A stretch of DNA of 64,000 bases, taken from NCBI GenBank assembly GCA_964023275.1, contig OZ029917.1, positions 33,570,505 through 33,634,504 of the forward strand, in the 5' to 3' direction. Source of the DNA: Norana najaformis (Eukaryota > Annelida > Clitellata > Crassiclitellata > Hormogastridae). Under the pieces are notes generated by a model, which worked only from the letters and a program-made list of their open reading frames with translations, had not been told where the DNA came from and did not search any database. Shown one piece after another: positions 16,760-59,814 of the stretch. Made by a program: the position numbers and the translations under genes. The stretch's first letter is position 1; each line of letters starts with the position of its first letter.

Positions 16760-18560
16760 CACCAACGTGCCTTTTTGATAAATTACTTCGTCCTAGTTCT
16801 TCATCTCCCGTCTTAGACTAATTTCAGCCAACTCTTGCAGAGGTTCGCAGACTCATATTTTCTTCACTTAACAAAAGCTCTCTCCTAGACACCATTCCCA
16901 CGTCTTTTCTGAAAGAATGTTTTTATGTCCTGGATCCAACCAGTACATCAATTATCAATATCTCATTCACTTGAGGAATCCTTCCCATCTGCTTTTCTCA
17001 TGCCATAGTCCATCCTCTGCTAAAGAAACCTTCTCTAGACCCTGGGGCCTGTCTAACTACAGGCCTATCTCAACTTTAAATTGCGCATCAAAAGTTCTTG
17101 AACGAGTAGTTTTGAATCGTATGCAAGCTCACCCGTCTTCCAATCCACTAGTCTCTCCATTTCAGTCTGCATACCGCAAATTTCATTCAACAGAATCTGC
17201 CATGCTTGCTCTTCATTACGACATCATGTGTTACGCCTACGATTCCTCGCTCAGCCCATGGACACATGGCGGGTCAACAAATGTCTTACTTACTTACTTT
17301 ACTTCCATGGATAAGGGTAAGCTGACAGCACTTGTTCTTCTTGATTTGTCTACTGCCTTTGACCATTCTCTCCTTTTGCATCGCCTCCAACACTGGTTTG
17401 GGGTTTCTGGTCCCGTCCTACATTGGTTTGCTACTTATCTCAGCCCACGCACTTTTCCAGTATATTTAAATGGACATTAATCGTCTAGTGCTTTGTTGAC
17501 ATGTGGTGTTCCGCAGGGTTCTGTACTTGGTCCTCTTTCATTTACATTATGCACTATACCACTAGGTACAATGCTGGATAACCATTCAATAGGATATCAT
17601 TTCTTTGCGGATGATATCCAAATCTACATTTCATTTGACAGTTTGTCTTGTCACTCGTCTGTTCAGCTTCTGTTCAGCTGTTGTGTGATGCCTTTGAGGA
17701 GAAGCAGTCTTGGATGGTGGCTAATAAACTCCTCCTTAACCCATCAAAGACTGAATTTCTACTATAGGGCACTCCACATCAACTAAAGAAGTTTAACTGG
17801 CTTAAAGCTAGGGGTCTCACTTGTTGAGTCGGCTGATGCTACTCGTGACTTGGACGTTGTGTTTGATTCTACCATGTCTCTCACAAACTATGTAAATGGT
17901 ATTTGTAAGTCATCATACATGTATATTCGTGACATACGCAGAATTAGGCGCTATGTTCCTATGTCTTCTAGAATATCTTTGGCAAACGCATTGGTCTCCA
18001 GTCGCCTTGATTACTGTTACTCGCTTCTTGTTGGTATACAAAGTCAAACATGCAGAATCTCCAAAGAGTTCAGAACTCCTTGGCTAGAGCCATAACAAAT
18101 ACTTCAAAATATGAGCATATAATCCCTGTGCTCAAGTCTTTGCTCTGACTTCCTGTTCAGCAAAGGATTTGTTTCAAATTGGGACTTACAGTTAATAAAA
18201 CATTAAACTCTGGCCAACAACAATACTTAAAATCAGTCCTAATTTCCCAGACTTACCATTATTCTGCAAAGTCATCTGATTATCTTTCTGTGGTCATACC
18301 TTGGACTAGAACTGTTCTCCGTAAACGGGCTTTTTCAGTTGCTGGATCTAGATTTTGGAACTCTCTCTTGGTGTCTGTTCGTTCCGCTCAGTCGCTTCTG
18401 TCATTTCGTTCTCAACTTAAAACTTTCAAATTGCTTATCCACCATAGACTGTCTCTCTGTTACATGGACTTACCTTCTGAATATTGAACTGATTGCGGCT
18501 TAGCTTTGGTACGTAATCGGTTCATACCTTGTGCATTAGACACCGGCGCATTAGAAGTTA
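16760..18560 (+). pseudogene. L2-type LINE (family L2-A), 5'-truncated and frameshifted
   Basis: Several frames together give an ordered L2-clade reverse transcriptase: LDTIPTSFLKECF, LSNYRPIST (16.9-17.1 kb), FQSAYRKFHSTESAM, LVLLDLSTAFDHSLL (motif A), CGVPQGSVLGPL (motif B, 17.5 kb), FFADDIQIYIS (motif C, 17.6 kb, FADD instead of YADD), SSRLDYC, and the C-terminal AFSVAGSRFWNSL. The endonuclease domain is missing. Stops and at least five frame changes make it dead. The 3' UTR (CCTTGTGCATTAGACACCGG) ends near 18560 and is shared with the copy at 30122-30595. Confidence 0.88.
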
Positions 18561-24282: not shown

Positions 24283-27200
24283 CTTCTTCTTGTGGTTCTC
24301 TGCCCTTTAGGCAGGTTCATACGTCCAATGGCGCCATTCTTCACGGTGCTGAGCATCTCTTTTCAGTCCGCTGTATCCATCCGTGATCATCCAGTCCAGC
24401 AACATCTGTCTAGGTCTTCCTCTTGTTTTTCGTCCCTCCATTCTTCCCTCGATAATAGTTCTTACAAGTGAGTTCCCTCTCATTATGTGGCCAATCCATT
24501 TCCTCTGTCGACGTCTAATTGTTCCCACCAAGGATCTTTCTTCCTCTACTCTTTGCAGTATCTCCTCATGTGTAATGTGCTCCGTCCAGCTGACTCTCTC
24601 CATCCTGCGCCATATCCACATCTCAAATGCTTCCAATCTTCTGATGTCTTCTTTTCTCAGAGTCCATGTTTCTGATCCATACAGAAACACGCTCCAAACC
24701 AAGGTTTTCACCAGTCGTTTCTTCAGGTTCCGATTTAGTTTCCCTCTCATTAGTTCCCTCCTCTTACAGAATGCGTCCTTTCCCATAGCTATTCTCCTTT
24801 TTATTTCAGCATGGCATTTCGCATCTTGTGTAATCACACTTCCCAGGTAGCAGAATTCCCCGACCTGTTCTATTTCTTCACCATTTATAGTGATCCTGAC
24901 TGTCGTTACCTCTTTTTTACTTATCTTCATAACCTTTGTCTTTTTGATGTTTATTTTCATTTCATATTCTGTCGAGACACTATTCAGACGGTCCATCATT
25001 CTCAGTAGACCCTCCTGACTGCCCGCCAACATCGCCTGATCGTCTGCAAACCTCAGAGCATTCAACAACCTGCCTCCCACCTTTATTCTCTCTGTCATGT
25101 CCTCCAATGCCTCTCTTATAAGTTCTTCAATGTATAAGTTGAAAAGCAGTGGTGAAAGTGGGCAACCTTGTCTCACTCCTCTACCTATTTTTCCAGGCTC
25201 CGAGTATTCTCCTTCGATTCTTATCCTTACTTTCTGGGCCATGTACAGGTTTCCTATAAGCCTTCTGTCTTTCCAGTCCACACCCAGTCGTGTAAGTGTA
25301 TGCATTAACTTCCTCCAGTCTACTCGATCAAATGCCTTCTCGTAATCCACAAAGCATACGTAAATGTCCTGAGCATGTTGGAGATTTCTTTCTGCTAGTA
25401 CCTTCAAGGCTCCAATTGCATCTCTTGTTCCTCTACCCTTCATGAACCCAAATTGATCCTCTCCTAGAAAGCCAGTTGCTTCTGTCTTAGCTTGTATCCT
25501 TTTTGTGAGAATTCGTAAAATGATCTTGGATGCATGAGTGAGAAGACTGATAGTTCGATGGTCCTCGCATGCTGTTGCATTTGGTTTCTTTTTGAGCGGG
25601 ATCAAAATGGTCTGCAAGAAATCCTCTGGCCATGCTCCAGTGTTGTCGATGTCCTGACATATTCTTACCAATTCTGCCATTGCCTTTTCTCCTAGGTTCT
25701 TAAGCAACTCAATCGGTATGCTATCAATCCCCTCAGCTTTATTGTTTTTCATTTCCTTGATGGCCGCCATTACCTCCTCCTTCATCACATCAGGTCCAGT
25801 AACATCACCCCTGTCATCTGGTGTGTACTCTTCCTGGAGAACCCTGTGGTTGCAGTCGCCCATATATAATTCCTCCACATAATCTTTCCAACGACTCCTG
25901 ATGTCATTGGGATCCTGTAGTATCCTGCCACACTTGTCCCTGACTGCAATTCCTCCACCAATATTCGGTTTCTTTGCTAACTTTGTAACCTTTTCGTATA
26001 CTAGATCATGTCTTCCAAACTCCTGTAGTGCCTCCAGGTCATCACATTGCTCCTCCCACCACTTTTCTCTTGCCTTGTCCGTTGTTCTCCTTAGTTTATT
26101 GTTGAGTCTTTTATATTCCTTTCTTGCTTCTTCTGTACTTTGGTGTTTCCATTTTCTTCTTCCTTCCATATCCTGAAGCATTTCTGTTGTGACAAAATAG
26201 TTTTCGAGGGGCCACCCCCACCTGGAATCCCACCATCTCCACCGCCTCTCCAAGCACTGTCTGCTTAAGTCTCCTCCATCTCTCCTCTGTTGATGCCATA
26301 TTTCCTGTTTCCAAGCGTTCCTCTATCCTATTTGATAGCTCTTGACTCTTCATTTGTAGTTTTTCCTTATTCCACTTCTGTCTTAGTATCCTTTTCTTCT
26401 TGAGGAATTTTAGTTGGAGGCAGAACGTCATGGCAACCAAGTTATGGTCCGTGTCCGCATCGGCTCCGGGTAGAGCTTTAGAGTTCTTTACACTATTCCT
26501 ATATCTTTGTCTAACCATGATATAGTCCAGCTGGTAACGTGCCTCATCACCTGGCGACTTCCAAGTGTATCTGCGCCGTTTTTCCTGCTGAAACCAGGTA
26601 TTTGTTACCACTAATTCTTGACGTCGGCAGAACTCCACAAGCTTCTCCCCTCTGTCATTTCTCTTCCCCAACCCATATTTACCTATACATTTTTCTTGCC
26701 CTCCCTCTCCAACCGATGCATTCCAATCTCCAATAACAATTATGTAGTTGCTTCCTTTGATGTCAGCGAGTTTTTCTTCTATTATCTCGTAGATACCGTC
26801 GACCTCCTCTTCCTCATGTGCTGTGGTGGGCATATAAATTTGCATGATCACAATGTCTACTCCCTCAGCCTGTAACGTCACCATGATCAACCTATCTCCA
26901 TGCTTCTCCACTATGTATACACACTTTGCGAGCGTTTCCTCCAACAAGATGGCCACACCATTTTGACTTTCCCTTCCGCCGGTGTAGATAACCCTAATTC
27001 CTTCACTCACAAAATCCCCATCCTCCCTCCATCTGACCTCGGATAGGCCCAATATGTCCAAACCTGCCCTTCTCATCTCTCCAATAACATTCGCCAACTT
27101 TCCTGGTCTCAGCATCGTTCTCACATTCCATGTCCCTACTCTTATCTTCTCTTTACAAGGATTTCGCTTGTTGATGACCTTAGAGGCCTTGTTCCCTCTC

Positions 27201-27284
27201 CTGCCGAACGCGACTCTTTCCGAAAACTGGATTGAATCGTTAACGTTGTTGACTGGCTTCTTTTTTGGCGTCATCTTCAGTTTA
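24283..27284 (-). mobile_element. RTE-type LINE, nearly full length (copy 1)
   Basis: The 3.0-kb element is bounded by a 9-base direct repeat, ATTAAGACT (24274-24282 and 27285-27293). Removing element and one repeat restores a normal unit of the surrounding minisatellite, so both ends are firm. The 5' leader before the first ATG is about 10 bases. The 3' end is a short AAGAAGAAG run, as usual for RTE elements. It is nearly identical to copy 2 (30644-33132), differing at about one to three bases per hundred in the stretches I compared. Confidence 0.95.
24307..27274 (-). pseudogene. RTE polyprotein: AP-like endonuclease and reverse transcriptase, one frameshift
   Basis: The endonuclease half reads from ATG 27274. 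It contains RVGTWNVRTM (about residue 45), LSEVRW, GDWNASVG, YQLDYIMV and ADTDHNLV, the catalytic motifs of APE-type LINE endonucleases. The RT half continues to 24307 with [26 protein letters not shown] (motif A), [13 protein letters not shown] (motif B), [10 protein letters not shown] (motif C, FADD), FCYLGSV, and the C-terminal GSETWTLR ... KWIGHIMRG ... RGRPRQ. The two halves are in different frames. Compared with copy 2, copy 1 has one extra base between about 26190 and 26202. No other stop is seen, so a single mutation disables it. Similar endonucleases are annotated as craniofacial development protein 2-like in many genomes, because that gene captured one. Confidence 0.93.
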
Positions 27285-27630
27285 ATTAAGACTATGCTGC
27301 TCTAATTCTCTCCAATTTATTCTATTCGCAACTGAAATAAGACGTTACTGTTCTAATCCTCTCCTATTTTCTAAGGAAAAAGACTTTGCTGTTCACCACA
27401 ATTTCACCTAGAATAAGACTATGTTGCTATAATATTTTCCTTATTTCTTCTGGAATAAGACTGTGCTTTTATATTCTTCCTCTGCTTTCCCAGGAAAGAG
27501 ATCATAGTGCTCTAATCCTTACTTATTCATTTATTCCCCATTGTAATGGAACTGTCCTGCTGTAACCCTCATCTCTTTCCTCTATACCTCACTAGATCGA
27601 AGGCCATGCTGATCTATCTTAGTAGAAAGA
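27285..27630. repeat. 51-bp minisatellite region, right part
   Basis: Decayed units with AATAAGACTATG(C/T)TG and CTAATCC/TCTC continue from the left part across the RTE insertion, up to the start of the TIR element at 27634. Confidence 0.75.
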
Positions 27631-27633
27631 TAA

Positions 27634-29402
27634 CACTGGACAACGAAGCTTTTGTTTTCTGAACACTTTTGGGTATATCTTATGGATTTTGGGCTGCTGA
27701 TCACGAAAATCACCTTTAAATTTTCCTATCACCCACTGTTTTTGAAATCGCCTATTTTTGTGATTTCCTCTCACATTTTCAGTCTACTAATATGTTGCCC
27801 ACAAAATAAGCTGTTCACTCAAGTCCTGGCATGCCTGGACATGCACTCAGTGCAAGTTGCACAAAATGTAATGGTAATGCTAATTCTTAGGCATGTCTGG
27901 TGAACCTCATCTGATAACAAAGTCAGAATTAAATGACCTGATCAGGGACTTAGGTTTGTCAAAAACAAAAATAGGACTATCTATCCTGTAGCGGAACATC
28001 TGTCCCTTCTGGAATGCCCTTTTACGCCTGCACTTGTAATATTTTGGGTGAAACTATTGTAGCTGTCTAGAGTGTTGGTTGTTGATGATTCAATAAACAA
28101 TGATTCAATTATTCAAATTTGATTCAAGACTGCAAGGATGCTGCCAGATAGAAAAATTTATGCCCTTCCGGCCCACCAAGAAGATAAGAGAAATTTCTTT
28201 GTGCAGGTTGACAACCTGTTTATGGCTGACATTGGTGGGTTGTTTACGGCTTTGGTTTGTGAGCATGACACAACAATTGCGTCTTTTTTTAGATTAGTCA
28301 CTATTAAGCCTGAAAGCTGTCTTGTTACACCAATCGCAATGTCCACCCTTCAATACGTTACTGGTTATGCAATATACATGATAAACTCCTACGAAAACAT
28401 GGAACTATTGTTGAAACACATACAGTACAGCAACTACAACTGGAACATCTATGGTGATTAAAAAGTAGTGGCACTGCTACTAGGAATGCAGCTTGGATAT
28501 ACCAAGTACTGTTGTTTAATTAGCGAATGAGTCAGCCGTGCTAAAGAGTCTCATTACATTAAAAAGAACTGGCCGATCCATAAGCGTTTGGTTTCAGGGC
28601 AGAAATGTGTGGCACATAAACCACTTGTTGACACGAGAAAGATATTTTTGCCTCCTCTTCATATAAAACTCGGACTGATAAGAAATTTTGTGAAAGCGAT
28701 GAACAAGGAAGGTGAAAGAATTCGATATTTGGGAACGATATTTCCAAGAATAACTGACGCCAAGATTAAGGAAGGCATTTTTGTTGGTCCACAAATCAGT
28801 CACGTCATCAACGACAAGCGGTTCGAAGATCTGCTAGTGGGGCCAGAGAAAATTCCATGGAAGGGATTCATTGATGTTGAGAATTTGTTTGGCAACTACA
28901 GAGCACCAAGCTATACGTGCAGCTGGTTGACAACATTCTTCAAGCATATAAAAACCACGAAGTGCAACATGTCGCTGAAGATTCATTATCTGCACTCACA
29001 CTTGGACTTCCTCCCTCTGCTAGTCTTAGTGCAGTTAGTGACGAACACGGTGAAAGGTTTTACCAGAACATTGTGAAGATGGAAAAGAGATATAAGGGCA
29101 ACTGGAACCCGTCAATTAATGCTGGCCGACTATTGCTAGACAGAAACGAGAAGCATCAGATGCTGAGTACAAGCCAAAATCAGAAGCAAAACACGTTTAG
29201 TTCAGTTGAGCAAATGCAAAATGTCTGTATCGATGTGTGATAAAACACGCTACATTCAATAAAAGTTAATTTTATGTTTCTCAAAATTCCTACGTGATAC
29301 AGTCAATCTGAAATTATATTTGTGTTCAGGTTGAAGCTGTCTATCAAAATCACCCAAAAATTTCAGGAAGCAAAAACTTTTGGAAAAATTTGTTGTCCAG
29401 TG
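27634..29402 (+). mobile_element. TIR element of an unnamed superfamily (copy B), internally deleted
   Basis: The left end CACTGGACAACGAAGC... and the complement of the right end CACTGGACAACAAATT... are inverted repeats, similar over about 50 bases (TTTTGxTTxCTGAA, TTTTGGGT). Both sides are flanked by TAA (27631-27633; 29403-29405). The element carries the C-terminal two thirds of the same gene found intact in copy A. Compared with copy C, the leader up to about 27885 is present, but the N-terminal zinc-ligand region is missing: the sequence jumps straight to GEPHLITKSELNDLI. This is an internal deletion with both ends kept. Confidence 0.85.
27890..29239 (+). pseudogene. Broken transposase-like gene of copy B
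   Basis: Several frames give an ordered copy of the 563-residue protein of copy A, from its residue ~172 to near its end. Landmarks: GEPHLITKSELNDL; an unrelated or decayed ~110-base stretch at 27985-28100; NWNIYGD followed by a stop (second-Asp region); KSHYIKK; LPPLHIKLGLIRNFVKAMN; GIFVGPQISHVI; NLFGNYRAPSY; MSLKIHYLHSHLDF; and DEHGERFYQNI. There are at least two stops and three frame changes. An AATAAA signal lies at 29258-29263, just after the stop. It is closer to copy C than to copy A. Function is inferred from copy A. Confidence 0.85.
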
Positions 29403-30643: not shown

Positions 30644-33132
30644 CTTCTTCTTCTTGTGGTTCTCTGCCCCCTAGGCAGGTTCATACGTCCAATGGCGCCA
30701 ATCTTCACGGTGCTGAGCATCTCTTTTCAATCCGCTGTATCCATCCGTGATCATCCAGTCCAGCAACATCTGTCTAGGTCTTCCTCTTGTTTTTTGTCCC
30801 TCCATTCTTCCCTCGATAATAGTTCTTACGAGTGAGTCCCCTCTCATTATGTGGCCAATCCATTTCCTCTGTCGACTTCTAATTGTTCCCACCAAGGATC
30901 TTTCTTCCTCTACTCTTTGCAGTATCTCCTCATTTGTAATGTGCTCCGTCCAGCTGACTCTCTCCATCCTGCGCCATATCCACATCTCAAATGCTTCCAA
31001 TCTTCTGATGTCTTCTTTTCTCAGAGTCCATGTTTCTGATCCATACAGAAACACGCTCCAAACCAAGGTTTTCACCAGTCGTTTCTTCAGATTCCGATTT
31101 AGTTTCCCTCTCATTAGTTCCCTCCTCTTACAGAATGCGTCCTTTCCCATAGCTATTCTCCTTTTTATTTCAGCATGGCATTTCGCATCTTGTGTAACCA
31201 CACTTCCCAGGTAGCAGAATTCCCCGACCTGTTCTATTTCTTCACCATTTATAGTGATCCTGACTGTCGTTACCTCTTTTTTACTTATCTTCATAACCTT
31301 TGTCTTTTTGATGTTTATTTTCATTTCATATTCTGTCGAGACACTATTCAGACGGTCCATCATTCTCAGTAGACCCTCCTGACTGCCCGCCAACATCGCC
31401 TGATCGTCTGCAAACCTCAGAGCATTCAACAACCTGCCTCCCACCTTTATTCTCTCTGTCATGTCCTCCAATGCCTCTCTTATAAGTTCTTCAATGTATA
31501 AGTTGAAAAGCAGTGGTGAAAGTGGGCAACCTTGTCTCACTCCTCTACCTATTTTTCCAGGCTCCGAGTATTCTCCTTCGATTCTTATCCTTACTTTCTG
31601 GCCCATTTACAGGTTTCCTATAAGCCTTCTGTCTTTCCAATCCACACCCAGTCGTGTAAGTGTATGCATTAACTTCCTCCAGTCTACTCGATCAAATGCC
31701 TTCTCGTAATCCACAAAGCATACATAAATGTCCTGAGCATGTTGGAGATTTCTTTCTGCTAGTACCCTCAAGGCTCCAATTGCATCTCTTGTTCCTCTAC
31801 CCTTCATAAACCCAAATTGATCCTCTCCTAGAAAGCCAGTTGCTTCTGTCTTAGCTTGTATCCTTTTTGTGAGAATTCGTAAAATGATCTTGGATACATG
31901 AGTGAGAAGGCTGATAGTTCGATGGTCCTCGCATGCTGTTGCATTTGGTTTCTTTTTGAGCGGGATCAAAATGGTCTGTAAGAAATCCTCTGGCCATGCT
32001 CCAGTGTTGTAGATATCCTGACATATTCTTACCAATTCTGCCATTGCCTTTTCTCCTAGGTTCTTAAGCAACTCAATCGATATGTTATCAATCCCCTCAG
32101 CTTTATTGTTTTTCATTTCCTTAATGGCCGCCAGTACCTCCTCCTTCATCACATCAGGTCCAGTAACATCATCCCTGTCATCTGGTGTGCACTCTTCCTG
32201 GAGAACCCTGTGGTTGCAGTCGCCCATATATAATTCCTCCACATAATCTTTCCAACGACTCCTGATGTCATTGGGATCCTGTAGTATCCTGCCACACTTG
32301 TCCCTGACTGCAATTCCTCCACCAATATTCGGTTTCTTTGCTAACTTTTTAACCTTTTCGTATACTAGATCATGTCTTCCAAACTCCTGTAGTGCCTCCA
32401 GGTCATCATATTGCTCTTCCCACCACTTTTCTCTTGCCTTGTCCGTTGTTCTCCTTAGTTTATTGTTGAGTCTTTTATATTCCCTTCTTGCTTCTTCTGT
32501 ACTTTGGTGTTTCCATTTTCTTCTTCCTTCCATATCCTGAAGCATTTCTGTTGTGACCCATGGTTTTCGAGGGGCCACCCCCACCTGGAATCCCAACGTC
32601 TCCACTGCCTCTCTAAGCACTGTCTGCTTAAGTCTCCTCCATCTCTCCTCTGTTGATGCCATATTTCCTGTTTCCAAGAGTTCCTCTATCCTATTTGATA
32701 GTTCTTGACTCTTCATTTGTAGTTTTTCCTTATTCCACTTCTGTCTTAGTATCCTTTTCTTCTTGAGGAATTTTAGTTGGAGGCAGAACGTCATGGCAAC
32801 CAAGTTATGGTCCGTGTCCGCATCGGCTCCGGGTAGGGCTTTAGAGTTCTTTACACTATTCCTATATCTTTGTCTAACCATGATATAGTCCAGCTGGTAA
32901 CGTGCCTCATCACCTGGCGACTTCCAAGTGTATCTGCGCCGTTTTTCCTGCTGAAACCAGGTATTTGTTACCACTAATTCTTGACGTCGGCAGGACTCCA
33001 CAAGCTTTTCCCCTCTGTCATTTCTCTTCCCCAACCCATATTTACCTATAGATTTTTCTTGCCCTCCCTCTCCAACCGATGCATTCCAATCTCCCATAAC
33101 AATTGTGTAGTTGTTTCCTTTGATGTCAGGTA
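30644..33132 (-). mobile_element. RTE-type LINE, 5'-truncated (copy 2)
   Basis: A 9-base direct repeat, TACAAGGGT, flanks it (30635-30643 and 33133-33141). The 3' end has the AAGAAGAAGAAG run. The homology with copy 1 ends at about 33128, inside the endonuclease domain, so roughly the first 500 bases of the element were not copied. Very high similarity to copy 1 indicates that both come from a recently active source. Confidence 0.94.
30671..33097 (-). pseudogene. RTE endonuclease (partial) and reverse transcriptase with one premature stop
   Basis: It opens inside the endonuclease at GDWNASVG (an ATG created by I-to-M change) and includes YQLDYIMV and ADTDHNLV. The RT follows in the same frame: [26 protein letters not shown], then a stop at 31604-31606 where copy 1 has a Tyr codon (TAC to TAA). 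Reading resumes without frame change: [36 protein letters not shown]. The region frameshifted in copy 1 (PRKPWVTTEM) is intact here, so the two copies carry different, independent lesions. Confidence 0.93.
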
Positions 33133-33141
33133 TACAAGGGT

Positions 33142-36100
33142 ATTTTCAATAAATGTCGTCACTGTGATGTTATTATTTAAAAGGGACTGTTCATAATTTT
33201 AAATTTAGTTTGTATTATGATCACGATTAAAATTGTTTTAGTCATTGATTTTTAAAAATCACGATTGCTAATTAAACAACTATTTAAAGGCCGTTTTCTC
33301 CGTTCACGGTGTACAATAAAGTTTATGTAATGTAGGCCCCTAATTTAAATCTCCAATATTTCTCACCTCAGTCTGATTACCTTTCAATACACGATGTAGG
33401 TCTAATATGTTTCTATTACACGAGCGATTCGCTTGCGCAAATCATTTGAATCAAGAGGAACACGAATTATGGAATGAGGTACTCATGACGATGAAAGTTG
33501 GTGACTCGTTGTTTGTCATAACTCCGTATGGGACTGTGTGGGCCAGTAGGTCTTAATGCCCTGTCTCCCACTGGACCCGCAAGTCCTGCACGAAGCTTCT
33601 GATTTTCTCGGCCCTTTCTTTCAATCCAAGAAACAAATCCTCTTCTTTTAATACAACGTCTGGATATTCGACTGCGACCACTTCTCATCGGTATCATTGC
33701 AAAAATTCATATCATTTGTGTCCAATCATGGACTTTTCAAAGTCCTAAGTCCTGCCTGATTTCAACAAAGCTAAGAAGTCAGATATTACTTCGGAAATAC
33801 TTCAAAGATTGCTCCAAGAAATGGACATTAAGATACACTTCTTATTTCAGAAAGCACTTATGGGTCAAAGCTCAAAAGAAAAGGGTGCAGTAGCCGCAAT
33901 GTAAAGTAGCCTGCTATGAAGCAGCTGTATGTCAGCACGACTTCCTGCTAGGACCTGTTTAAACAGCTGTGCTAAGAGTAGGTCGTCTGTTAGCCCATGC
34001 ATGATATAGTAAAGAAACAAAGGCAAAAGGAAGTCTTCATAATTGATTCACTATCGTCCCAGCAAGTTGTAACAAATAATGAATTGATTCACTCATTTAC
34101 AAATTTGATCACTAAATGTTACCAAAACGAGGATTCTGTTTTGTTGCAAAGGATCATATTATAATTTCAAGCGGCACATAGGACTTCCCATGAACTGTAT
34201 ATATGAACAATGAAGTAGGGTGTAAAATAGGAAGAAAAGGTACAGCATCAGCAGCAGCGGAAGATGCCGCAGAAGCAGAAGAAGCAGAAAAGCAGAAGAA
34301 GCAGAAGAAGCAGAAGAAGCAGAAGAAGCAGAAGAAGCAGAAGAAGAAGAAAAAGAAAAAGAATAAGAAGAATAAGGAGAAGGAGAAGAAGAAGTAGGAG
34401 AAGAAAAAGAAGATTAAAATAGTCATCAGCATGATTATAATGATCATTATGATCATGATCAAAATTATATTCCTAGTCATAATCATCATCACCAGTCACC
34501 ATCACCACCATCACTATCGACCATGTTGTTATGCCAGTAGGCACCGAAAATAAACTAGATCTCACAACAGTACTACAAAAACAATGTCAATCGCACAAAA
34601 TAAAGCACTAAAATTCGGAAATAAAAACATAAATAAAAACTACGAAACTTCGTAAATAAAAATATTGTCAGTTAAATTTGAATTATAGTTGTAGAGAACG
34701 CCGGAAGCAGAATAATAAATACAATGTTCAGCAAAATAACACCATAAAATATGTAAGCCCAATCAACCAAGGGCAAAGATGAAACCTTTGAAAGATTCAC
34801 ATCTGCTGTGCACGTGTGTGTAATTCATCTTTCTCCTAAGTCACCAGCAGAGGCGTAAGTACTGGCAACCTGTTGCTTTCTTGAAGAGATAAATTACAAA
34901 GCTCATTAAGGTCTTTGGCAGCTAATTAGATGTTTACAACCAAAGAAAAGATCGTTTAACCGCCTCTGTGTTGAAGGTTAGTGATTTCCCATGGTTAGTC
35001 ACCAAACCAAAGCTTTTAATTGATGGCACCCATGAAATTGAGACGCCCCTTAAGATCATGGAATCAGTAACGGAGCTAGCCAATTTACACACACCAGTAC
35101 AATAGAATTTTCCGAGAATGATCTTTGGAGAGATACACAGTAACTCTGAAAACGAATATGCTGAAGTTAAACATGTATTTCAGCCAATTAACAGAGAGCA
35201 TAGTTGCAACATATCGTCAGCATAGAGCAGAAAGAAAATGACGAATTTATTGGCAACCAATGCCAAGTTTACTCAATTACACAACAAAAATGTTTATCAA
35301 TATAATGAAGAGAAAGAGAGAGTGATAAAACACTGCCTTATCTCACTCCAAAAGCCACTGATAAGCGGTACGAAGAGTAATAACCCGAAGGCACTTTAAC
35401 CATACCAACTTACTAATTACCTCTGGACCGCTTTACCCAGGGAGAATTTGCTCGACATTTTCAAAAGTCATCTTGCGGCAAATGTCATGACTTTAAGGAT
35501 GAGCGGGGTATCTGGACATCTGGATGCCAGATCTTGGATCTTGTCCAAATTATACCACATATGCCACGAAAGTGATCAGCAAAATTCGTATGCGACATTA
35601 TAGTCAGTAAGACAACCGCTGAGTGAAATGTTTGAGAGGCTACGACAAACTTTCGAATTCAATGTTTTTCAAAGCTTCGAAGGGCTTTTGTTTAGAAAGT
35701 ACTCGCACAGTTCATCATTATGTCGACTTGCAAAGTACGGTGATGAATCTCTGATTGTTAACATACAGTTCAATTAGCAGAACAGTTATTGCGATACATC
35801 TTGTCGCCTGCAGTAGACATCCACATATCACTATTACTACTGCTGCTGCTACTACAACTACTGTTACCACCACTCCCACCACCACCACCAAACTGTTCAA
35901 GATATTACCAAGGCAGCGAGGATAATTAAGCCCACCGCTTCAACTATCAGCACCAATCAGCACCGATTCATCATCATTATCAAAACAATTCCTTTATCAA
36001 CTGCAGATGTCGCCGGATTTGGACTCTAAACCTGACATGTGTAAGGCAATGCCACAAAACGATGCTAATGCTGCATCGAAAGGTAATATCCTGAACAGCT

Positions 36101-36604: not shown

Positions 36605-39093
36605 TTTCTCTTTTGACACACCATCTGATCATTATCCCATCTTTACACGTCTTGCCGTTCAACCTACTCCACGCCCTGATCCTGTCTTTCATTGTTTTTT
36701 CCTGTCATTAATTCAATTAACATTGAAGCCTACAAGATATCTCCTGCACAGGTCTTGTTTTAAATCCACACTCCTCCATTGATGACCTTCTCTCTTCCTA
36801 CAACATCACTCTTTCCATAATTCATGGCCAGCATGCACCTATCATTACCAAATCCAGCTCTAACTCTAGCAATCCTTGGTACAATTCCTATCTTCAGGCC
36901 TTCAAATCTTTCCGGCGACGCCTTGAACGCGCTTACAAACGCACCCATGAGCCTTCAGCTTCTACCTGCCCTTAAATCTGCCACAAATAAATATTATCAC
37001 CTTCTTATTGCTGCTAAAAAGAGATTTTACTCTTCTTTAGTTCGCTCCCAATCCTCTAGCCCCACCTTCTCTGGAAAACCATAAACCAACTCTCCTCCAT
37101 CGGAACTCATCCAGCCCACTTCCAAATTCTCTTCCACCTTCTTCAGTAGCTGATTCCTTCTGTTCTTTCTTCTCTGATAAAATTAGTACCCTCTGTCTTT
37201 CTCTACAATCTCTCCTTTCCAAAAACACCAATTGTCCACCTGATGATCATTCCTTTCCCACCCATGACTGCCCACCCTCCTCACCACGATCTTCACTTTT
37301 TGTCTTTCAACCCACATCATGACTGAAATACTGCATCTATTAAACTCTCTTCCTAACAAACATTGTGAACTTAACCCTATGCCCACATCCTTATTGAAAG
37401 ACTGTGCATCTGTCCTTGTCCCAATCATTACCAAAATAGTTAATCTCACTTTATCTAAGGGTAATTTACACCTCCTTTTCACACAGTCTCTTGTTATCCT
37501 CTTCTGAAGAAATCATCACTTGACAAAGAAAAACCTTTGAACTACCGACCTCTTTCTAACCTGCCTTTCATCTCCATATTAACTAAAGGGATTGTCCTCT
37601 CTCAGATAAATGACTATTTAGCTTACAACTCACTCCTTAACCCACACCAGTCTGCTTTTACTAAGCGCCACTCAACTGAAACTCTGCTGACATCTCTCTA
37701 CAACAAGCTTGTTTCTGCCATCTCTCATCAACAGATTTCTTGCCTCTGTCTCCTTGATATCTCAGCAGCCTTTGACACCATAGTCCAACGACTCTCAACC
37801 TGGTTTGGTTTTGCTGACACTGCTCTGCTCTGAATACGTCTTATCTCTCCTCCCGCTCTTTCTCCGTTAAAACTTCTGAAGCCTCTTCTCAATCATGCCC
37901 TTTCGCTTGCGGAGTTCCGCAAGGCTCCGTTCTTGGACCTCTTCCACTCAGTTCACTCGTTAAAAAAGCACCCTCAGTTGACCATCACCTCTATGCTGAC
38001 GACACCCAGTTATTCATCTTTTTCTCTCCGAATTGTTTCAACGAGTCAATAGATCATCATCTTTGTGTGGTTAAACAAATCTCCTTCTGGATGAAAACTA
38101 ATCTCTTGTGCCTCAACCCATCTACAACTGAATTCAAAATTGAATCCATACTTATTGGCCTTCATGACCAGCTCAGGAAAATTCCTGACCCCTCTATCTC
38201 CCTCGGCCTGGACTCTGGCTCCACACACACCTTTAGCAATAACTCTTATGTCCGTAACCTAGGTGTGATCTTCGACCAAAACCTCAGCTTCTCTGATCAC
38301 ATTACCCATCTCTCCCGCTCTTGCTTTATGCATATCCGTGACCTTCGCAGAATCAGCCCTATGCTTGACTTCAAAACTGCATCTACCGTTGCCACATCCA
38401 TAGTCCATGCAAACCTAGACTACTGCATTTCACTTTTTCTCAATATAGATACCACTCAAATAAACCGCCTTCAAGCTATCCAAAATGCTCTTGCTCGTGC
38501 TGTCACCAAAACTCCCAAACACCATCACATAACTCTTGTTCGCAAATCACTTCACTGGCTTAAAATACCTGAACGTATAGAGTACTAAGTCCTGTCCCTT
38601 ACCTATAACACACTTCAATCCTCCCAACTCTCCTATCTTCGTCAATTATTTACAATCCAACCACTCCGTTCAACACGCTCCTCTTTTGTCATAACCCTTC
38701 TTCGCCCTACCGTCACCTCACCCTTAAAATTTGGAAATCGCTCCATACCTCTGGAATAAACTCCCGCCAGAATTACGACAATTATCTGATCCATCATACG
38801 AACTCACCAACACTTCACCTCTTGCAATTTCTGCACTGGTCTTTCACTCAAAACTAAAAACATTACTTTCCAAAAGTCTTATCCTAATTCTTCCCCTTAT
38901 CTCTCTTATCGTTTCATTTTCAAGCACCATCCACCGTAGCCGTCCGACTGTCTGCCAGCCTGACTCCCGGATCTTGACCTGGAACCGAACCCTTTTGCCT
39001 ATCAATTTTGTTTTGACTGAGCGCCTGTGAATAAGCTGGTTCCCGCGACTTAGCTTTCGTTGGGCGCTGTAGAAATCTCAAGATAACGATTAC
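36605..39093 (+). pseudogene. L2-type LINE (family L2-B), longest copy
   Basis: It starts at the last endonuclease motif (SDHYPIFTRL, near 36625). It continues through a KSATNKYYHLLIAAKKRF linker and decayed early RT motifs with LSNLPFISI at 37.55 kb. Next come NPHQSAFTKRHSTETLL, LCLLDISAAFDTI (motif A), CGVPQGSVLGPL (motif B, 37.91 kb) and HLYADDTQLFI (motif C, 38.0 kb, intact YADD). A long open stretch follows with RNLGVIFDQNLSFSDHI, LDYC and HITLVRKSLHWLKI. The 3' UTR ends GCGCTGTAGAAATCTCAAG plus an AACGATTACG tail. Several frameshifts and stops, and no 5' end, make it non-functional. It is the reference for the L2-B fragments at 580, 8756, 20545, 45335 and 55672. Confidence 0.92.
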
Positions 39094-46195: not shown

Positions 46196-46706
46196 AAGGC
46201 AACATCTCTCAATCAGCTTGACTACGAATTTTATGCCCCTCGTTGGGTAACTGAAATGGTTTGGGACATCTGGGCCCATGCCGCATATATCCCAAAACGA
46301 ATCTAGCCCTGAACAAGTAACGTTTTTGCAACCCATTATATACATATAGGCCTATAACACTGGATCACACGAAAAACATTTTCGCCTGCTACTAGGCATA
46401 TGTTATGTGTACTACACTAAATCGAATCTGCTGATTCCAAATCTGAAGTCAGATTTTGTGTAGCACGTCAGGATCTTAAGATATGCAGCATACATGCTAA
46501 TAATTATGCAAACTCTTTACAGAACTAGTATTTCCTTATAACTGTGTAATTATGCAAACTCAGAGTATTCATAACAAGAAACAAAATGTTATTCTTTTAT
46601 AACTTTAAATTAAAATATGTTTTAAAATGTAACATAAATATATGTATGTTACTCAGATGAAAGCATACATTTCGAAATTTTGTCTCTATCTTAACTCTAT
46701 ACGAGT

Positions 46707-48398
46707 TCAAAAGTGCTTTAGACACTTGCTCTTGCGCTTGTGAGTGGGCGCTGTTGCCCGCTGCAGAAACCAGCAGTTATCGCCCATCATGTTGGAATTG
46801 CAGTGGCCCTGATATCTTGCTTCAAAGGTGGAGATGTCTTGATGGAATCTCTCTCCATGCTCATCGCATACATCACCCAAGTTTGGTGGGAAAAAATCCA
46901 GATGGGAATGTAAGAAATGTATTTTTAGTGACATCCGGCAGCCGAGTTGCTTATATGCTGTTAGCATGTTGCTAACGAGTTCAGCATAGTTCTCAGCTCG
47001 GTGATTCCCAAAGAAGTTTTGGACCACCAACGTACGTGCATCCCAAGCGGCAAATTCCAGTGGGTTGAGCTTGGTTCTAAATACAGTATCACGCATTAGT
47101 TCGCGGATTTCTGGCCCAATAAAAATCCCAGCCTTCAGCTTAGCATCAGTTTTGATGGCTCCAAATTTATCTCTCAGATACTGGAAGCCTTGTCCAGTAC
47201 GATCCATTGCCACTACGAAATTCCTCATGAGGTCCAGTTTAATGTGAAGTGGTGGTAAATACACTTTCAATGGATCAACCAAAGGTTCGTGTTGCACATT
47301 GTGCCGACCAACAATGTGCTCAGATCTAGGAGGCCACAGTTTCACTTTGTAATGGTTGCTGCCATCACGACTGTTCCACAAGCACAAAAAGCACATATGT
47401 TTTGTGTACCCCAGCTGTAGGCCTAGAATAAGTGCTACCACTTTGAGGTCCGCACAGATGTTCCATTTGTGGTCTGAGTAGTTGATCACTTTCAAAATGA
47501 GTTTCATTGAATCATATGTCTCTTTGAGGCCTACAGCGTGGGCTATAGGAACAGACGGCTTTTCGTTACCATTGTGCACCAACACAGCTTTCAAGCTCGC
47601 TTGGCTGGAATCTATGAACAGTCTCCACTGATCAGGAACGTATTCGCAACCTAAATTCAGCATGAGACCGTTCACGTCAGTACAGAAACAGATATCATTT
47701 TCCAGTTTGTAATATGTAGCTAACTGTTTGTGACGATAACGGAAGTGTGATGTTGTGGTACCTTTATGAAGCAAGTTCCACTCCCCTAGTCTGGAGGCTA
47801 ACAATTCAGATTTCTCCTTTGACAAAGATAGGTCCCTCACCAGATCATCTAACTCACCTTGCCTTATCAAATGCGGCCTACCCTCTTCCAAATCTTGATC
47901 ACTGGATTCATAAACAGTAACGTCATCTTCTGTATTACCATCAGAACTGACCGTTTCATCAGCACCCGCAGCAGGCGGAAATGGTACTGGATTCTCTTCA
48001 TCATGCGGCACTGGCTTTAGAGCGGACTTGCAATCAGGATAAACGATTTTATACTTATTTTTCTTTGAAAATCCAGCAACTTTAGTAATGCAGAAATAAC
48101 AGTCTGCATGATGATTTCTTGGCTCGCGCCACACCATAGGCACAGCAAACGGCATTGAATTCCTTTTGCCATTCAGCCACTGTGTAAGCCCAGAGTAGCA
48201 CACGGTGCAGCAGACATGAGGTGCCCAACTTTTATCCTGGTCTCCGATTTGACATCCAAAATAATACTTGTAAGCAATCATCACTCTCTTAGTTAACTTC
48301 TTGCGCTGGTCACAAAGAGTATATTTACCACAAACATAGCAAAAATTGTCTGGATGGTTAACACAGCCTCGCCTATTCATTTCAAAATTAAATCTCAC
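46707..48398 (-). CDS. Transposase-like protein of the unnamed TIR element (intact, 563 aa)
   Basis: I recognise the family as widespread uncharacterised proteins in animal genomes, without a known function. N-terminal part: a Cys-rich, probably zinc-binding region (C20-x2-C23, C63/C64-x2-C67, C100-x2-C103). Residues 140-172 are acidic. The core resembles an RNase H-like fold: WRLFIDSS strand with D263, AVLVHN and IAHAV strands, KWNICADLK with D317, then C336-x2-C339. A long helical insertion follows with LPPLHIKLDLMRNF (H385), then HSHLDFF and DEHGERFHQD (E513, E516). D-D-CxxC-H-E is the arrangement of several DDE transposases. Residues 550-563 are basic (HKRKSK), a possible nuclear signal. 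Met7 is an alternative start, because the related copy C begins there in alignment. The gene lies wholly between the TIRs. The DDE assignment is inference; the reading frame is open throughout. Confidence 0.85.
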   Translation of the reverse strand: MRFNFEMNRRGCVNHPDNFCYVCGKYTLCDQRKKLTKRVMIAYKYYFGCQIGDQDKSWAPHVCCTVCYSGLTQWLNGKRNSMPFAVPMVWREPRNHHADCYFCITKVAGFSKKNKYKIVYPDCKSALKPVPHDEENPVPFPPAAGADETVSSDGNTEDDVTVYESSDQDLEEGRPHLIRQGELDDLVRDLSLSKEKSELLASRLGEWNLLHKGTTTSHFRYRHKQLATYYKLENDICFCTDVNGLMLNLGCEYVPDQWRLFIDSSQASLKAVLVHNGNEKPSVPIAHAVGLKETYDSMKLILKVINYSDHKWNICADLKVVALILGLQLGYTKHMCFLCLWNSRDGSNHYKVKLWPPRSEHIVGRHNVQHEPLVDPLKVYLPPLHIKLDLMRNFVVAMDRTGQGFQYLRDKFGAIKTDAKLKAGIFIGPEIRELMRDTVFRTKLNPLEFAAWDARTLVVQNFFGNHRAENYAELVSNMLTAYKQLGCRMSLKIHFLHSHLDFFPPNLGDVCDEHGERFHQDISTFEARYQGHCNSNMMGDNCWFLQRATAPTHKRKSKCLKHF

Positions 48399-48450
48399 AC
48401 ACTAGCTACAGCTATATAAGAAAACTTCACCTTCGTTCTACGCAATCTCG

Positions 48451-48459
48451 CCTTATATA
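48451..48459 (-). promoter_or_regulatory. TATA box of the copy A gene
   Basis: The minus strand reads CAGTATATAAGGCGAG. TATATAAGG lies about 53 bases upstream of the ATG at 48398, inside the right TIR region's inner side, so the element carries its own promoter. Confidence 0.6.
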
Positions 48460-48757
48460 CTGGTATTGATGCTGACATGCCCAATCGTGTCTAGCGGCTG
48501 CTGCAGGCTTGCTGTTAGGAATATTTCAGGCGACACTTGCAGGCATGCACGTATCACTGGCAACAATCGTGGAGACACATACAACAGAATGTACAGACAT
48601 AACCGAAAACGAGTCCTTACGTCATTACTTGAATGCATGCATAACTTAAAATCTAGACGTGCTGGGCAGATTCTGACTTCATATTTGGAATCAGCACATT
48701 TGAATCAATATAAGGTACATGCATTACTTTCAGTAGCAAAATCGTTGTGATCCAGTG

Positions 48758-49705
48758 TATAATTGCATGTAAGATATACTGTATATAATATGCAGTTAAC
48801 TCCGACCGGTAAGTAGGCTACTTTCTTCTGAAACATGACCATTGCAAAGCCATTACCGGCTACCTAATTAGTCAAATAATTAATAGGTCACTCATGAAAC
48901 TGTTCAGTTGGTCCCAGACAGAATAAACGTATAACTCTGAACAGATTTTAATCAACATAATGTGCGAAACAGCAGATAGCTATCAACAAAAAATGTGTTT
49001 TAGTATTAATAAAAACGAAAGCTCCACCGATCGAATTCAACACTTCACAGTTTGGAGTATCGAAGAGTTCTATTCCAGAAAAAAATAAATTTAACGAACA
49101 TATTGACAATTTACGACGTGTAGCTTAGCCTCAAAAAAGCTATAGTCCTATCCAGTGGAGAAATAGAAAACATTAGGTCTCACAGTGGAGAAATTTAAAA
49201 TATTAGATCTCAAAGCTATAGGCCTATATATCCATGAAGAAATTGAAAAGATTAAGTCTGCTAAAGAGAAACACTTAAAATATTCGTGTCTCTCATCATA
49301 AACCGTAGTTCTTGCACAAAACAAGAACGTGATTAAAATGACTGTTTTATGAGCGTCATTTTAAATACTACTTATTGACAAAATTTGCTGGAAATTGTCC
49401 AAATTTTCCAAGCCATGCAGCGACCATGCAGGTCAGGTCTCTCATGCTGTACATGTGCTATGCCATTCTGTTCCTTAAATCATCGCCATCTATCATGCAC
49501 CCGCTAAAAAACTAAACCTACCTATTCCTAGAGTTATGTGTATCTTCAGTTCTAGTTGCCTATCATCGTTCGCATATCACATAAACCGAACAATGAATGA
49601 CGTGCAAAGATATTGTTTATAAATGGACACAAGGCAACCAGTTAATATCTAAATTAAATGCAGGAATGCCTTGCAGTTTGCTAGTTTATGCTGTTTGCCT
49701 AAAGT
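48758..49705. other. Unassigned intergenic DNA
   Basis: Contains a small local repeat (GTGGAGAAATxxAAAAxATTAG at about 49155-49205). No gene recognised. Confidence 0.35.
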
Positions 49706-54813: not shown

Positions 54814-55101
54814 CACTGGACAAACGAAGATTTTGCTTCCTGAACACTTTTGGGTGTATCTTATGAATTTTTGGCTGCTGATCACGAAAATCGCCTCTAA
54901 TTTTTCTATCAACCACTGTTTTTTGGAATCGCCTATTTTTGTGATTTCCTGTCACATTTTCAGCCCACAAAATAAGCTGTATTGTTTAATCCAGGCAAAC
55001 CTGGGCATGAACTCAACGCAGGTTGCTCAACTTGCAAAAGAAATGCTAATGCTTAGGCTGATTGGGCATGCTTAATCAGGATGGATGCTGGCAGGATAGG
55101 C

Positions 55102-55109: not shown

Positions 55110-55671
55110 AAGCTCGTATACACAGATGCTATGCATTAAGTTGGTATCAGTTTGTACATATGATGATACACATGTTCTACAGGCATAGACAGCATAGTAT
55201 GCGCACCTAACAATACCTTTTATTGTCTACAGGACGATTCCTTACAGCAGAAATGACTCGTCAATGTCGCAATAGCCGCGATACATTCTGTTACATTTGT
55301 GGCGAGTATACGCTTAAGCTTCTAAACTGCTTCATGTCTGCACTGAATAAGAAACCATGTCAGCTCTATTTCGGTTTTAAAATTGGTGATCAAGACAAAC
55401 TCTGGGTTCCTCTAATATGCTGTGCACATCTGTTGTCGATCTGAGAGCTAGGCTCAGAGGTTCTTGGAAGTCAATGTAGTTCGCAGTCCCGATGATATGG
55501 CGAGAACAGACGGCTCACGTTACGAACTGTTACTTCTGCCTGACCAATGTCTCTGGCTTCTCTGCTAAAAATAAGGAATCTATCGAATGCCCCAATCTGC
55601 CTTCAGCCACGAGACCTGTGCTGCATGACGACAGTTTGCCAGTACCGAGGCCACCAGAGACATGGAGATTA

Positions 55672-56616
55672 CGCGACCAGCTTAAGAAAATTTCAGATTC
55701 CTCTATCTCTTTCAGCCTGGACTCTGCATGCACACACAACTTTAGCACTAAATCTTCTGTCCGTAACCTAGGTGTGATCTTTGACCAAAACCTCAGCATC
55801 TCTGATCACAGTATCTATCTCTCCCGCTCTTCCTTTATGCATATCCGCGACCTTCGCAGAATCAGCCCTATGCTTGACTTTAAAACTGCATCAACCATCG
55901 CCACATCCATAGTCGATGCTAAATTAGACTATTGCAATTCACTATTCCTGAATATAGGCTCCACCCAAATAAGCCGCCTTCAAGCCATACAGAATGCTCT
56001 TACTCGTGCTGTCACCAAAACCCCCAAACACCATCACATCACTCCTGTTCTTAAATCACTCACTGGCTTAAAATTCCTGAACGAATTGAGTACAGAGTCC
56101 TATCACTTACCTACAACACACTTCAATCTTCCCAATCCTCCTATTTTCGTCAGTTGTTTACAATACAACCGCTTCGCTCAACCCGCTCCTCTTCTGCCCT
56201 AACACTTCTCCGCCCTCGCCTCATCTCATCCCTAAAATTTGGTAATTGCTCCATACCATAGCTGCCTCTCCACTCTGGAATTAACTCCGCCAGAACTGCG
56301 ACAGCTTTCTGACCCATCATACAAACTCATCATTGCTCCACCGCTTGCAATATCTGCTTCGGCCTTTCACTCAAAAGCTGAAAACATTCCTCTTTCACAG
56401 ATCCTATCCTGACATCCCTTCTTCCTCTTATCTCTCTCTGCTGTTCAACCCCAAACACCACACCCCGTAGCTGCCACGCTGTCTCTCCGTCTGAATTTTG
56501 GATCTTGAGCTGGAACCGGAACCTTTGTTTTGACTGAGCGCCTGTGAATAAGCTGATCCCAGCGGCGCGGCTTTCGTTGGGCGCTGTAGAAAAATCTCGG
56601 AATTAGGATTACGATT
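55672..56616 (+). mobile_element. L2-B LINE, 5'-truncated, inserted in copy C
   Basis: It aligns with 38168-39090 of the long L2-B copy. It encodes RNLGVIFDQNLSISDHS, MHIRDLRRISPMLDFKTAS, LDYCNSLFLNIG and KTPKHHHITPVLKSL, in one open frame of ~170 codons. The 3' UTR and GCGCTGTAGAAAAATCTCGG end follow. AGATTA on both sides (55666-55671; 56617-56622) is a possible 6-base target duplication. Confidence 0.88.
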
Positions 56617-58095: not shown

Positions 58096-58772
58096 CAGAT
58101 TGCGCTGCTTTAGCATTACAGCCATTACAGTCATTACTGACATACTGTTCGTAACTGTTGTAAATAGGCCGCTGTAAATAGGCCCATTATTAGTGACATT
58201 CCTCATTTGTTGTCTATTGAGATGTTGTGCTTTATGTCTCCTGCATTAGGCCTACTTCATGAATCCTACATGGGTCAGGGGTTTTGTCCCTGGAAACCAA
58301 TAGGGGCTTCGCACCCAGACCTCCATAATATGCCCGGGCCCCCCAATGTTTAGGACGGATCGACGCCTCTGGCCACAAAGTACGAGGCCGACGTGATAAA
58401 CGACATTGATCTAGATTTCGAACTGTTTATGACTGGTGAGCCGCATCTGATAACATAGTCACAATTAAATTACCTGGTCAGGTTCGTCAAAAGCAAATGC
58501 AGAACTACTTGGTTCAAAACTGCAAGAATGGGGTTTACTGTCGTCAGGTACGAAAATTTCCGTATCTCAGACCCACCGAAAAGAAATGCGAAATTTCTTA
58601 GTGCAGTTTAATTTACAAGTTTCTGCACTGACATTGATGGGTCGTTCACGGCTTTGGGTTGTGAGCATGACTCACAACAATGGCGTCTTTTCATATATAT
58701 GAGTCACTGTTAAGCCTGAAAACTGTCTTGTTACATCAATCGCAATGTCCACCCTTCAATACCTATTGGTTA

Positions 58773-58861
58773 TTATTTTTATTATTTATTTATTTTATTT
58801 ATTAAAGCACTTGTAACGCGCGCAATGTCAGTACACCTGAATCTGAGGCGCGGAGATGTTA
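58773..58861 (-). mobile_element. Short retroelement 3' end inserted in copy C
   Basis: Copies B and C align on both sides (GTCCACCCTTCAATAC; ACGAAAAxATGGAACT), but C has ~89 extra bases. On the minus strand these read GCGCGTTACAAGTGCTTTAA followed by an (ATAAAT)n tail. This is the look of a severely 5'-truncated LINE or SINE end. GTTAT on both sides may be the target duplication. Confidence 0.65.
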
Positions 58862-59577
58862 TGCAGTACACATGAAAGAAACCTACGAAAAGATGGAACT
58901 GTTGTTGAAACCTTACAGTATAACAGCTACAACTGGAACATCTGTGGTGATCTAAGACGAGTGGCCCTAATAGAAATGCAGCTCGGATATCTCAAGTACT
59001 GTTGTTTCATTAGCGAATGGGTCAGCCGTGCTAAAGAGTCTCATTACATTAAAAAGAGCTGGCCGATCCATAAACGTTTGGTTTCAGGGCAGAAATGTGT
59101 GGCACATAAATCACTTGTTGACACGAGAAAGATATTTTTGCCTCCTCTTCATATAAAACTCGGACTGATGAGAAATTTCGTGAAAGCGATGAACAAGGAA
59201 GTTGAAGGATTTCGATATTTGAGAACGATATTTCCAAGAATAACCGACGCCAAGATTAAGGAAGGCATTTTTGTTGGTCCACAAATCAGTCACGTCATCA
59301 ATGACAAGCGGTTCGAAGATCTGCTAGTGGGGCCAGAGAAAATCGCATGGAAGGCATTCAAGGATGTTGTTGGGAATTTTCTTGGCAACTATAGAGCACC
59401 AAACTACATCCGGCTGGTTGACAACATTCTTCAAACATACAAAACCATGAAGTGCAAGATGTCGCTGAAGATTCATTATCTGCATTCACACTTGGACTTC
59501 TTCCCCTCTAGTCTTAGTGCTGTTAGTGACAAACACGGTGAAAGGTTTCACCAGAACATTGTTAAGATGGAGAAGCA

Positions 59578-59814
59578 CAGAAATGGTTGTTGAACAAGGC
59601 AAAGAAACTGGGACAATGCATAAAAGTTGAAGAAAGCATGGGGGACAGTGCTTGGTTTAGCATTGTCCCCTCTGCTGTCCCCCATTAGAAGTTTCAACTT
59701 TGGGGAATAATCCCCCAGTTAAAACTTTGTGTGGGGACAGTCTCTCTCTGCCCTCCCCGTGATTTCCGCCACTAGCCCCGCCGGGGTCTACCCTTCCTCA
59801 ACTTAAAATCCAAT
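59578..59814. other. Unassigned repeat-like DNA next to copy C
   Basis: GGGGGACAGTG / CTGTCCCCCA words alternate (59640-59690), and CCGCCACTAG lies at 59770, reminiscent of a DNA-transposon end. I could not define borders. This segment replaces the missing right end of copy C. Confidence 0.35.

Follow-up and report, generated by a model that had tools for sequence, protein, structure and literature searches.

A Transposon of Norana najaformis That Is Very Likely a Recently Spread Member of Chapaev3

In a 64,000 nt stretch of the genome of the annelid Norana najaformis (contig OZ029917.1, positions 33,570,505 to 33,634,504; hereafter the window), the gene for a Cys-rich protein of an uncharacterised family lies between inverted repeats at 46358–48757, and the locus raises the question of whether this is a complete transposon and, if so, to which superfamily it belongs. 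An earlier note on this DNA had proposed a cut-and-paste DNA transposon of a superfamily that could not be named. The first part of that proposal is borne out by many genome copies, 3 bp duplications, empty sites and a predicted fold of RAG1/Transib type, and the element is real, complete and probably recently active. As for its name, each hallmark that allowed a conclusive test agrees with what is published for Chapaev3 (PMC4079192, PMC4411706), and the element is very likely an autonomous Chapaev3 cut-and-paste transposon that recently spread in the host genome.

Copies in the Host Genome

The earlier note had proposed a search of the host assembly (608 Mb, 17 contigs) for further full copies and, with the element as query, at least 40 near-full-length copies were found. 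The best 40 of 577 candidates each cover at least 2393 of the 2400 bases at 97–100% identity, and are spread over 14 of the 17 contigs. Thirty copies were fetched, these being the best-scoring ones, so that the sample leans to young copies. All 30 start with CACTG, 27 show CACTG and CAGTG at both ends, and the complete frame of 557 amino acids (aa) is kept in 24. The number of near-full-length copies, together with the CACTG start, argues that the structure of the element is more than chance. The fetched copies are 98.6–99.4% identical to their own majority sequence and have a mean pairwise identity of 98.0%, values which suggest that the family is the product of a recent burst.

Target Sites and Empty Sites

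Target-site duplications were counted in 27 of the 30 copies, with L007, L015 and L030 dropped, in which only one end was located at the boundary. Flanking words of 3 bp are identical in 18 of the 27, while those of 1, 2, 4, 5, 6, 7 and 8 bp are identical in 2, 2, 0, 2, 1, 0 and 0, respectively. The 18 identical 3-mers comprise 11 TTA, 6 TAA and 1 TTT (17 being TWA), and the base before the duplication is A in 25 of the 27 copies, and that after it T in 23. The target of the family is therefore A-TWA-T, with TWA duplicated. TATAA does stand on both sides of the window copy, as had been pointed out, but as the 5 bp duplication of the family it was rejected, since only two copies have identical 5-mers. 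At 3 bp the flanks of the window copy are TAA on the left and TAT on the right; the TATAA pair is either chance or the trace of an unusual event, and a 5 bp duplication in this copy alone is possible.

Precise empty sites, the other genomic check that had been suggested, were found for two other copies, L002 and L003. The genome was searched with joined flanks carrying a single 3-mer (L002–L006, plus 33 bases of the L007 left flank), and the best 40 of 148 candidates were scored. For L002 and L003, many uninterrupted paralogues of the surrounding repeat were recovered, and a base-level reading gave four empty sites, three belonging to L003 and the fourth to L002, all continuous with a single TAA. 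The left flank of the occupied L002 site reads CAA against TAA in the empty site, most likely through a later mutation. The joins of L004–L006 returned no rows, their own loci included, so that this null is uninformative. When the joined flanks of the 27 copies were compared with the sequences already collected, two spanning rows were obtained, both between L002 and L003. The two insertions with empty sites are thus in members of a single abundant repeat (flanks of L002 and L003; L032–L035), some 210 bases from each other in repeat coordinates, and the transposon must have entered this repeat on two or more occasions.

Structure of the Window Copy

The features of the window copy are given below (positions in the window).

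46358..48757, minus (gene strand): complete transposon assigned to Chapaev3, from its ends, inverted repeats, genome copies and the empty sites of two other copies
46358..46501, no strand: terminal inverted repeat on the 3' side of the gene, starting CACTGGATCACACG
48624..48757, no strand: terminal inverted repeat on the 5' side of the gene, CACTGGATCACAACG reading inwards
46353..46357, plus: left flank TATAA, the final three bases of which (TAA) agree with the 3 bp rule of the other copies
48758..48762, plus: right flank TATAA, in which the 3 bp adjoining the end are TAT, so that this copy departs from the family rule
46707..48380, minus: transposase gene, one exon, 557 aa, with D257, D311, C330-x2-C333, L378-H379, H488-x4-H493, E507 and E510
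48453..48459, minus: TATATAA box, located 79 bases before the ATG
46710..47873, minus: RAG1/Transib-like catalytic part (predicted), residues about 170–557
47970..48380, minus: N-terminal zinc domain, residues 1–137, in the position of the published Chapa domain (PMC4411706); a ZAD-like fold is suggested

The element starts with CACTGGATCACA and ends with TGTGATCCAGTG. Its inverted repeats had been put at about 130 bases; the two arms, of 144 and 134 bases, form an imperfect alignment that contains several indels. At 2400 bp it is shorter than the other 29 fetched matches (2404–2416 bp), and in most copies the gene begins 14 bases farther from the end, so that the window copy carries a small deletion ahead of its coding frame. 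Only two frames of at least 80 aa lie within the element, that of the transposase and one of 93 aa, on the opposite strand near one end. The earlier note was right about a sole gene with an open frame and its own TATA box, and its length of 563 residues has been revised to 557 aa from the ATG (564 aa from stop to stop).

The transposase has 1,565 database relatives. D257 and D311 are invariant in alignment A1, from which P0005 was excluded. In fold comparisons the protein matches RAG1, HzTransib and BbRAGL best, with 11–14% identity in the structural alignments, and it is predicted to have an RNase H fold of RAG1/Transib type carrying Chapaev motifs; the catalytic Glu of the predicted DDE site could be E507 or E510. 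The phage search yielded nothing, and among viral contigs there were 37 pattern matches, none of them a relative by tblastn.

Assignment to Chapaev3

Chapaev elements are characterised by CAC/GTG ends and by the motifs C(2)C, LH and H(4)H; in Chapaev3, TWA is moreover duplicated between A and T (PMC4079192). The present family has 5'-CAC...GTG-3' termini (both ends in 27 of 30 copies), duplicates TWA between A and T (the window copy deviating), is absent from paralogous sites that hold one TWA only (L002 and L003), and carries C(2)C at C330/C333, LH at L378/H379 and H(4)H at H488/H493. Ends, duplication and motifs are the same as those of the Chapaev3 elements Garfield, Merrow and Conan, and the size is like that of Garfield (2,289 bp, with a transposase of 556 aa), although Garfield and Merrow have two exons and the present element only one, with inverted repeats of 134–144 bases (PMC4079192). 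Transib, TransibSU, Chapaev and Chapaev3 have been grouped with RAG1 (PMC4411706). The element is very likely a member of this published animal superfamily, a distant relative of the antibody-gene recombinase RAG1, and kinship of its fold with RAG1 is expected and not new.

That the element might represent a new, unnamed superfamily with a RAG1 fold, merely resembling Chapaev3, is considered quite improbable. It would account for the lack of any Pfam family match to the window protein, and for a 120-row profile that matched no PDB sequence. The single sequence gave weak unrelated PDB rows only. The absence from Pfam carries little weight, and we know of no Pfam model for Chapaev3. The ends, A-TWA-T target, protein length and C(2)C/LH/H(4)H motifs fit published Chapaev3, with which the Cys-rich N-terminus is also compatible.

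A Transib or RAG-like (ProtoRAG) transposon is suggested by the three best fold matches and by ends that start with CAC, but is very hard to reconcile with the 3 bp duplication (18 of 27 copies, against 2 of 27 for 5-mers), as Transib and RAG duplications are of 5 bp. The single transposase gene leaves no room for the RAG2-like gene of ProtoRAG, identity with these proteins is as low as noted above, and C(2)C and H(3-4)H occur as shared motifs throughout the wider CMCT group (PMC12730594). A CACTA/EnSpm element, for which CAC..GTG ends and 3 bp duplications are likewise reported (PMC12730594), is very unlikely. The A-TWA-T target, LH and H(4)H are published signs of Chapaev/Chapaev3 (PMC4079192). 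Transposase_21, the Pfam family of the EnSpm transposase, is not among the 25 families listed, of 30, in a Pfam scan of 52 alignment members.

The N-Terminal Domain

The N-terminus of the transposase is Cys-rich and folded, and an N-terminal Chapa zinc domain is known in both Chapaev and Chapaev3 (PMC4411706). The Pfam model zf-AD (PF07776) gave weak, in-register matches in 6 of 16 N-termini (best E 2.4e-4) and in none of 16 shuffled controls, while the RAG1 importin-binding model matched weakly in 3 of 16 (best E 0.077). Neither the window protein nor its own N-terminus matched zf-AD, and the curated cut-off was not reached among the 10 full-length relatives scanned (best 19.0 bits against 28). 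A ZAD-like fold is suggested by two Cys pairs, which resemble those of the ZAD, a domain of insect C2H2 transcription factors, and by a modest fold match; the in-register Pfam matches, present in some relatives, all lie below the curated cut-off where the score is known. The two also differ, since no C2H2 fingers follow in the transposase, and a further Cys pair and a His (C94, C97, H90) fall outside the Pfam match. Homology between the Chapaev3 zinc domain and the insect ZAD is offered tentatively, as a possibility somewhat short of even; the ZAD would then perhaps stem from a RAG1-related transposon, or the transposon domain from a ZAD. Parallels exist in the THAP and BED domains, which also occur in P-element and hAT transposases.

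Other Mobile Elements in the Window

A copy of a second Chapaev3-like family lies at 27634–29402, with ends CACTGGACAACG and TTGTCCAGTG and a broken transposase frame. Its flanks are ATAA and TAAT, in keeping with the A-TAA-T rule, which backs the Chapaev3 assignment from within the window. Another, broken copy of the second family starts at 54814 (CACTGGACAAACG, preceded by ATAA), with pieces extending to 59638, and is 90% identical to the former over 727 bases. Its N-terminal part (55253–55845) and catalytic part (about 58294–59638) are separated by other sequence, and its other end was not found. Two mutually similar stretches on the minus strand (24307–27301 and 30671–33145) have motifs such as FADD and are presumably from a non-LTR retrotransposon. 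The frames at 16872–17480 and 37818–38588, the second with YADD, are taken to be reverse transcriptase pieces of another type of retroelement.

Proposed Mechanism and Significance

By comparison with RAG1 and Transib, the 557 aa transposase would act as a dimer that pairs the two ends, with the inverted repeats bound by the N-terminal zinc domain and the pre-RNase-H region. The putative DDE site (D257, D311 and E507 or E510) would cleave adjoining the terminal CAC. RAG1 and Transib cut through flank hairpins, and by analogy the same is probable here. The ends would then be joined to A-TWA-T targets with a 3 bp stagger, and host repair would produce the duplication.

With the assignment to Chapaev3, an 'uncharacterised' protein with 1,565 relatives in the databases becomes a transposase whose ends and target site are known and whose fold is predicted. 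The element is otherwise ordinary, and it is the ZAD-like N-terminus that may merit a second look. If true, the link would explain in a testable way where the ZAD of insect transcription factors came from, and the most abundant class of these factors in insects may carry a transposon-derived domain (or the reverse). Since many intact copies lie close to one majority sequence, the genome of N. najaformis is well suited to a search for Chapaev3 elements that are still active.
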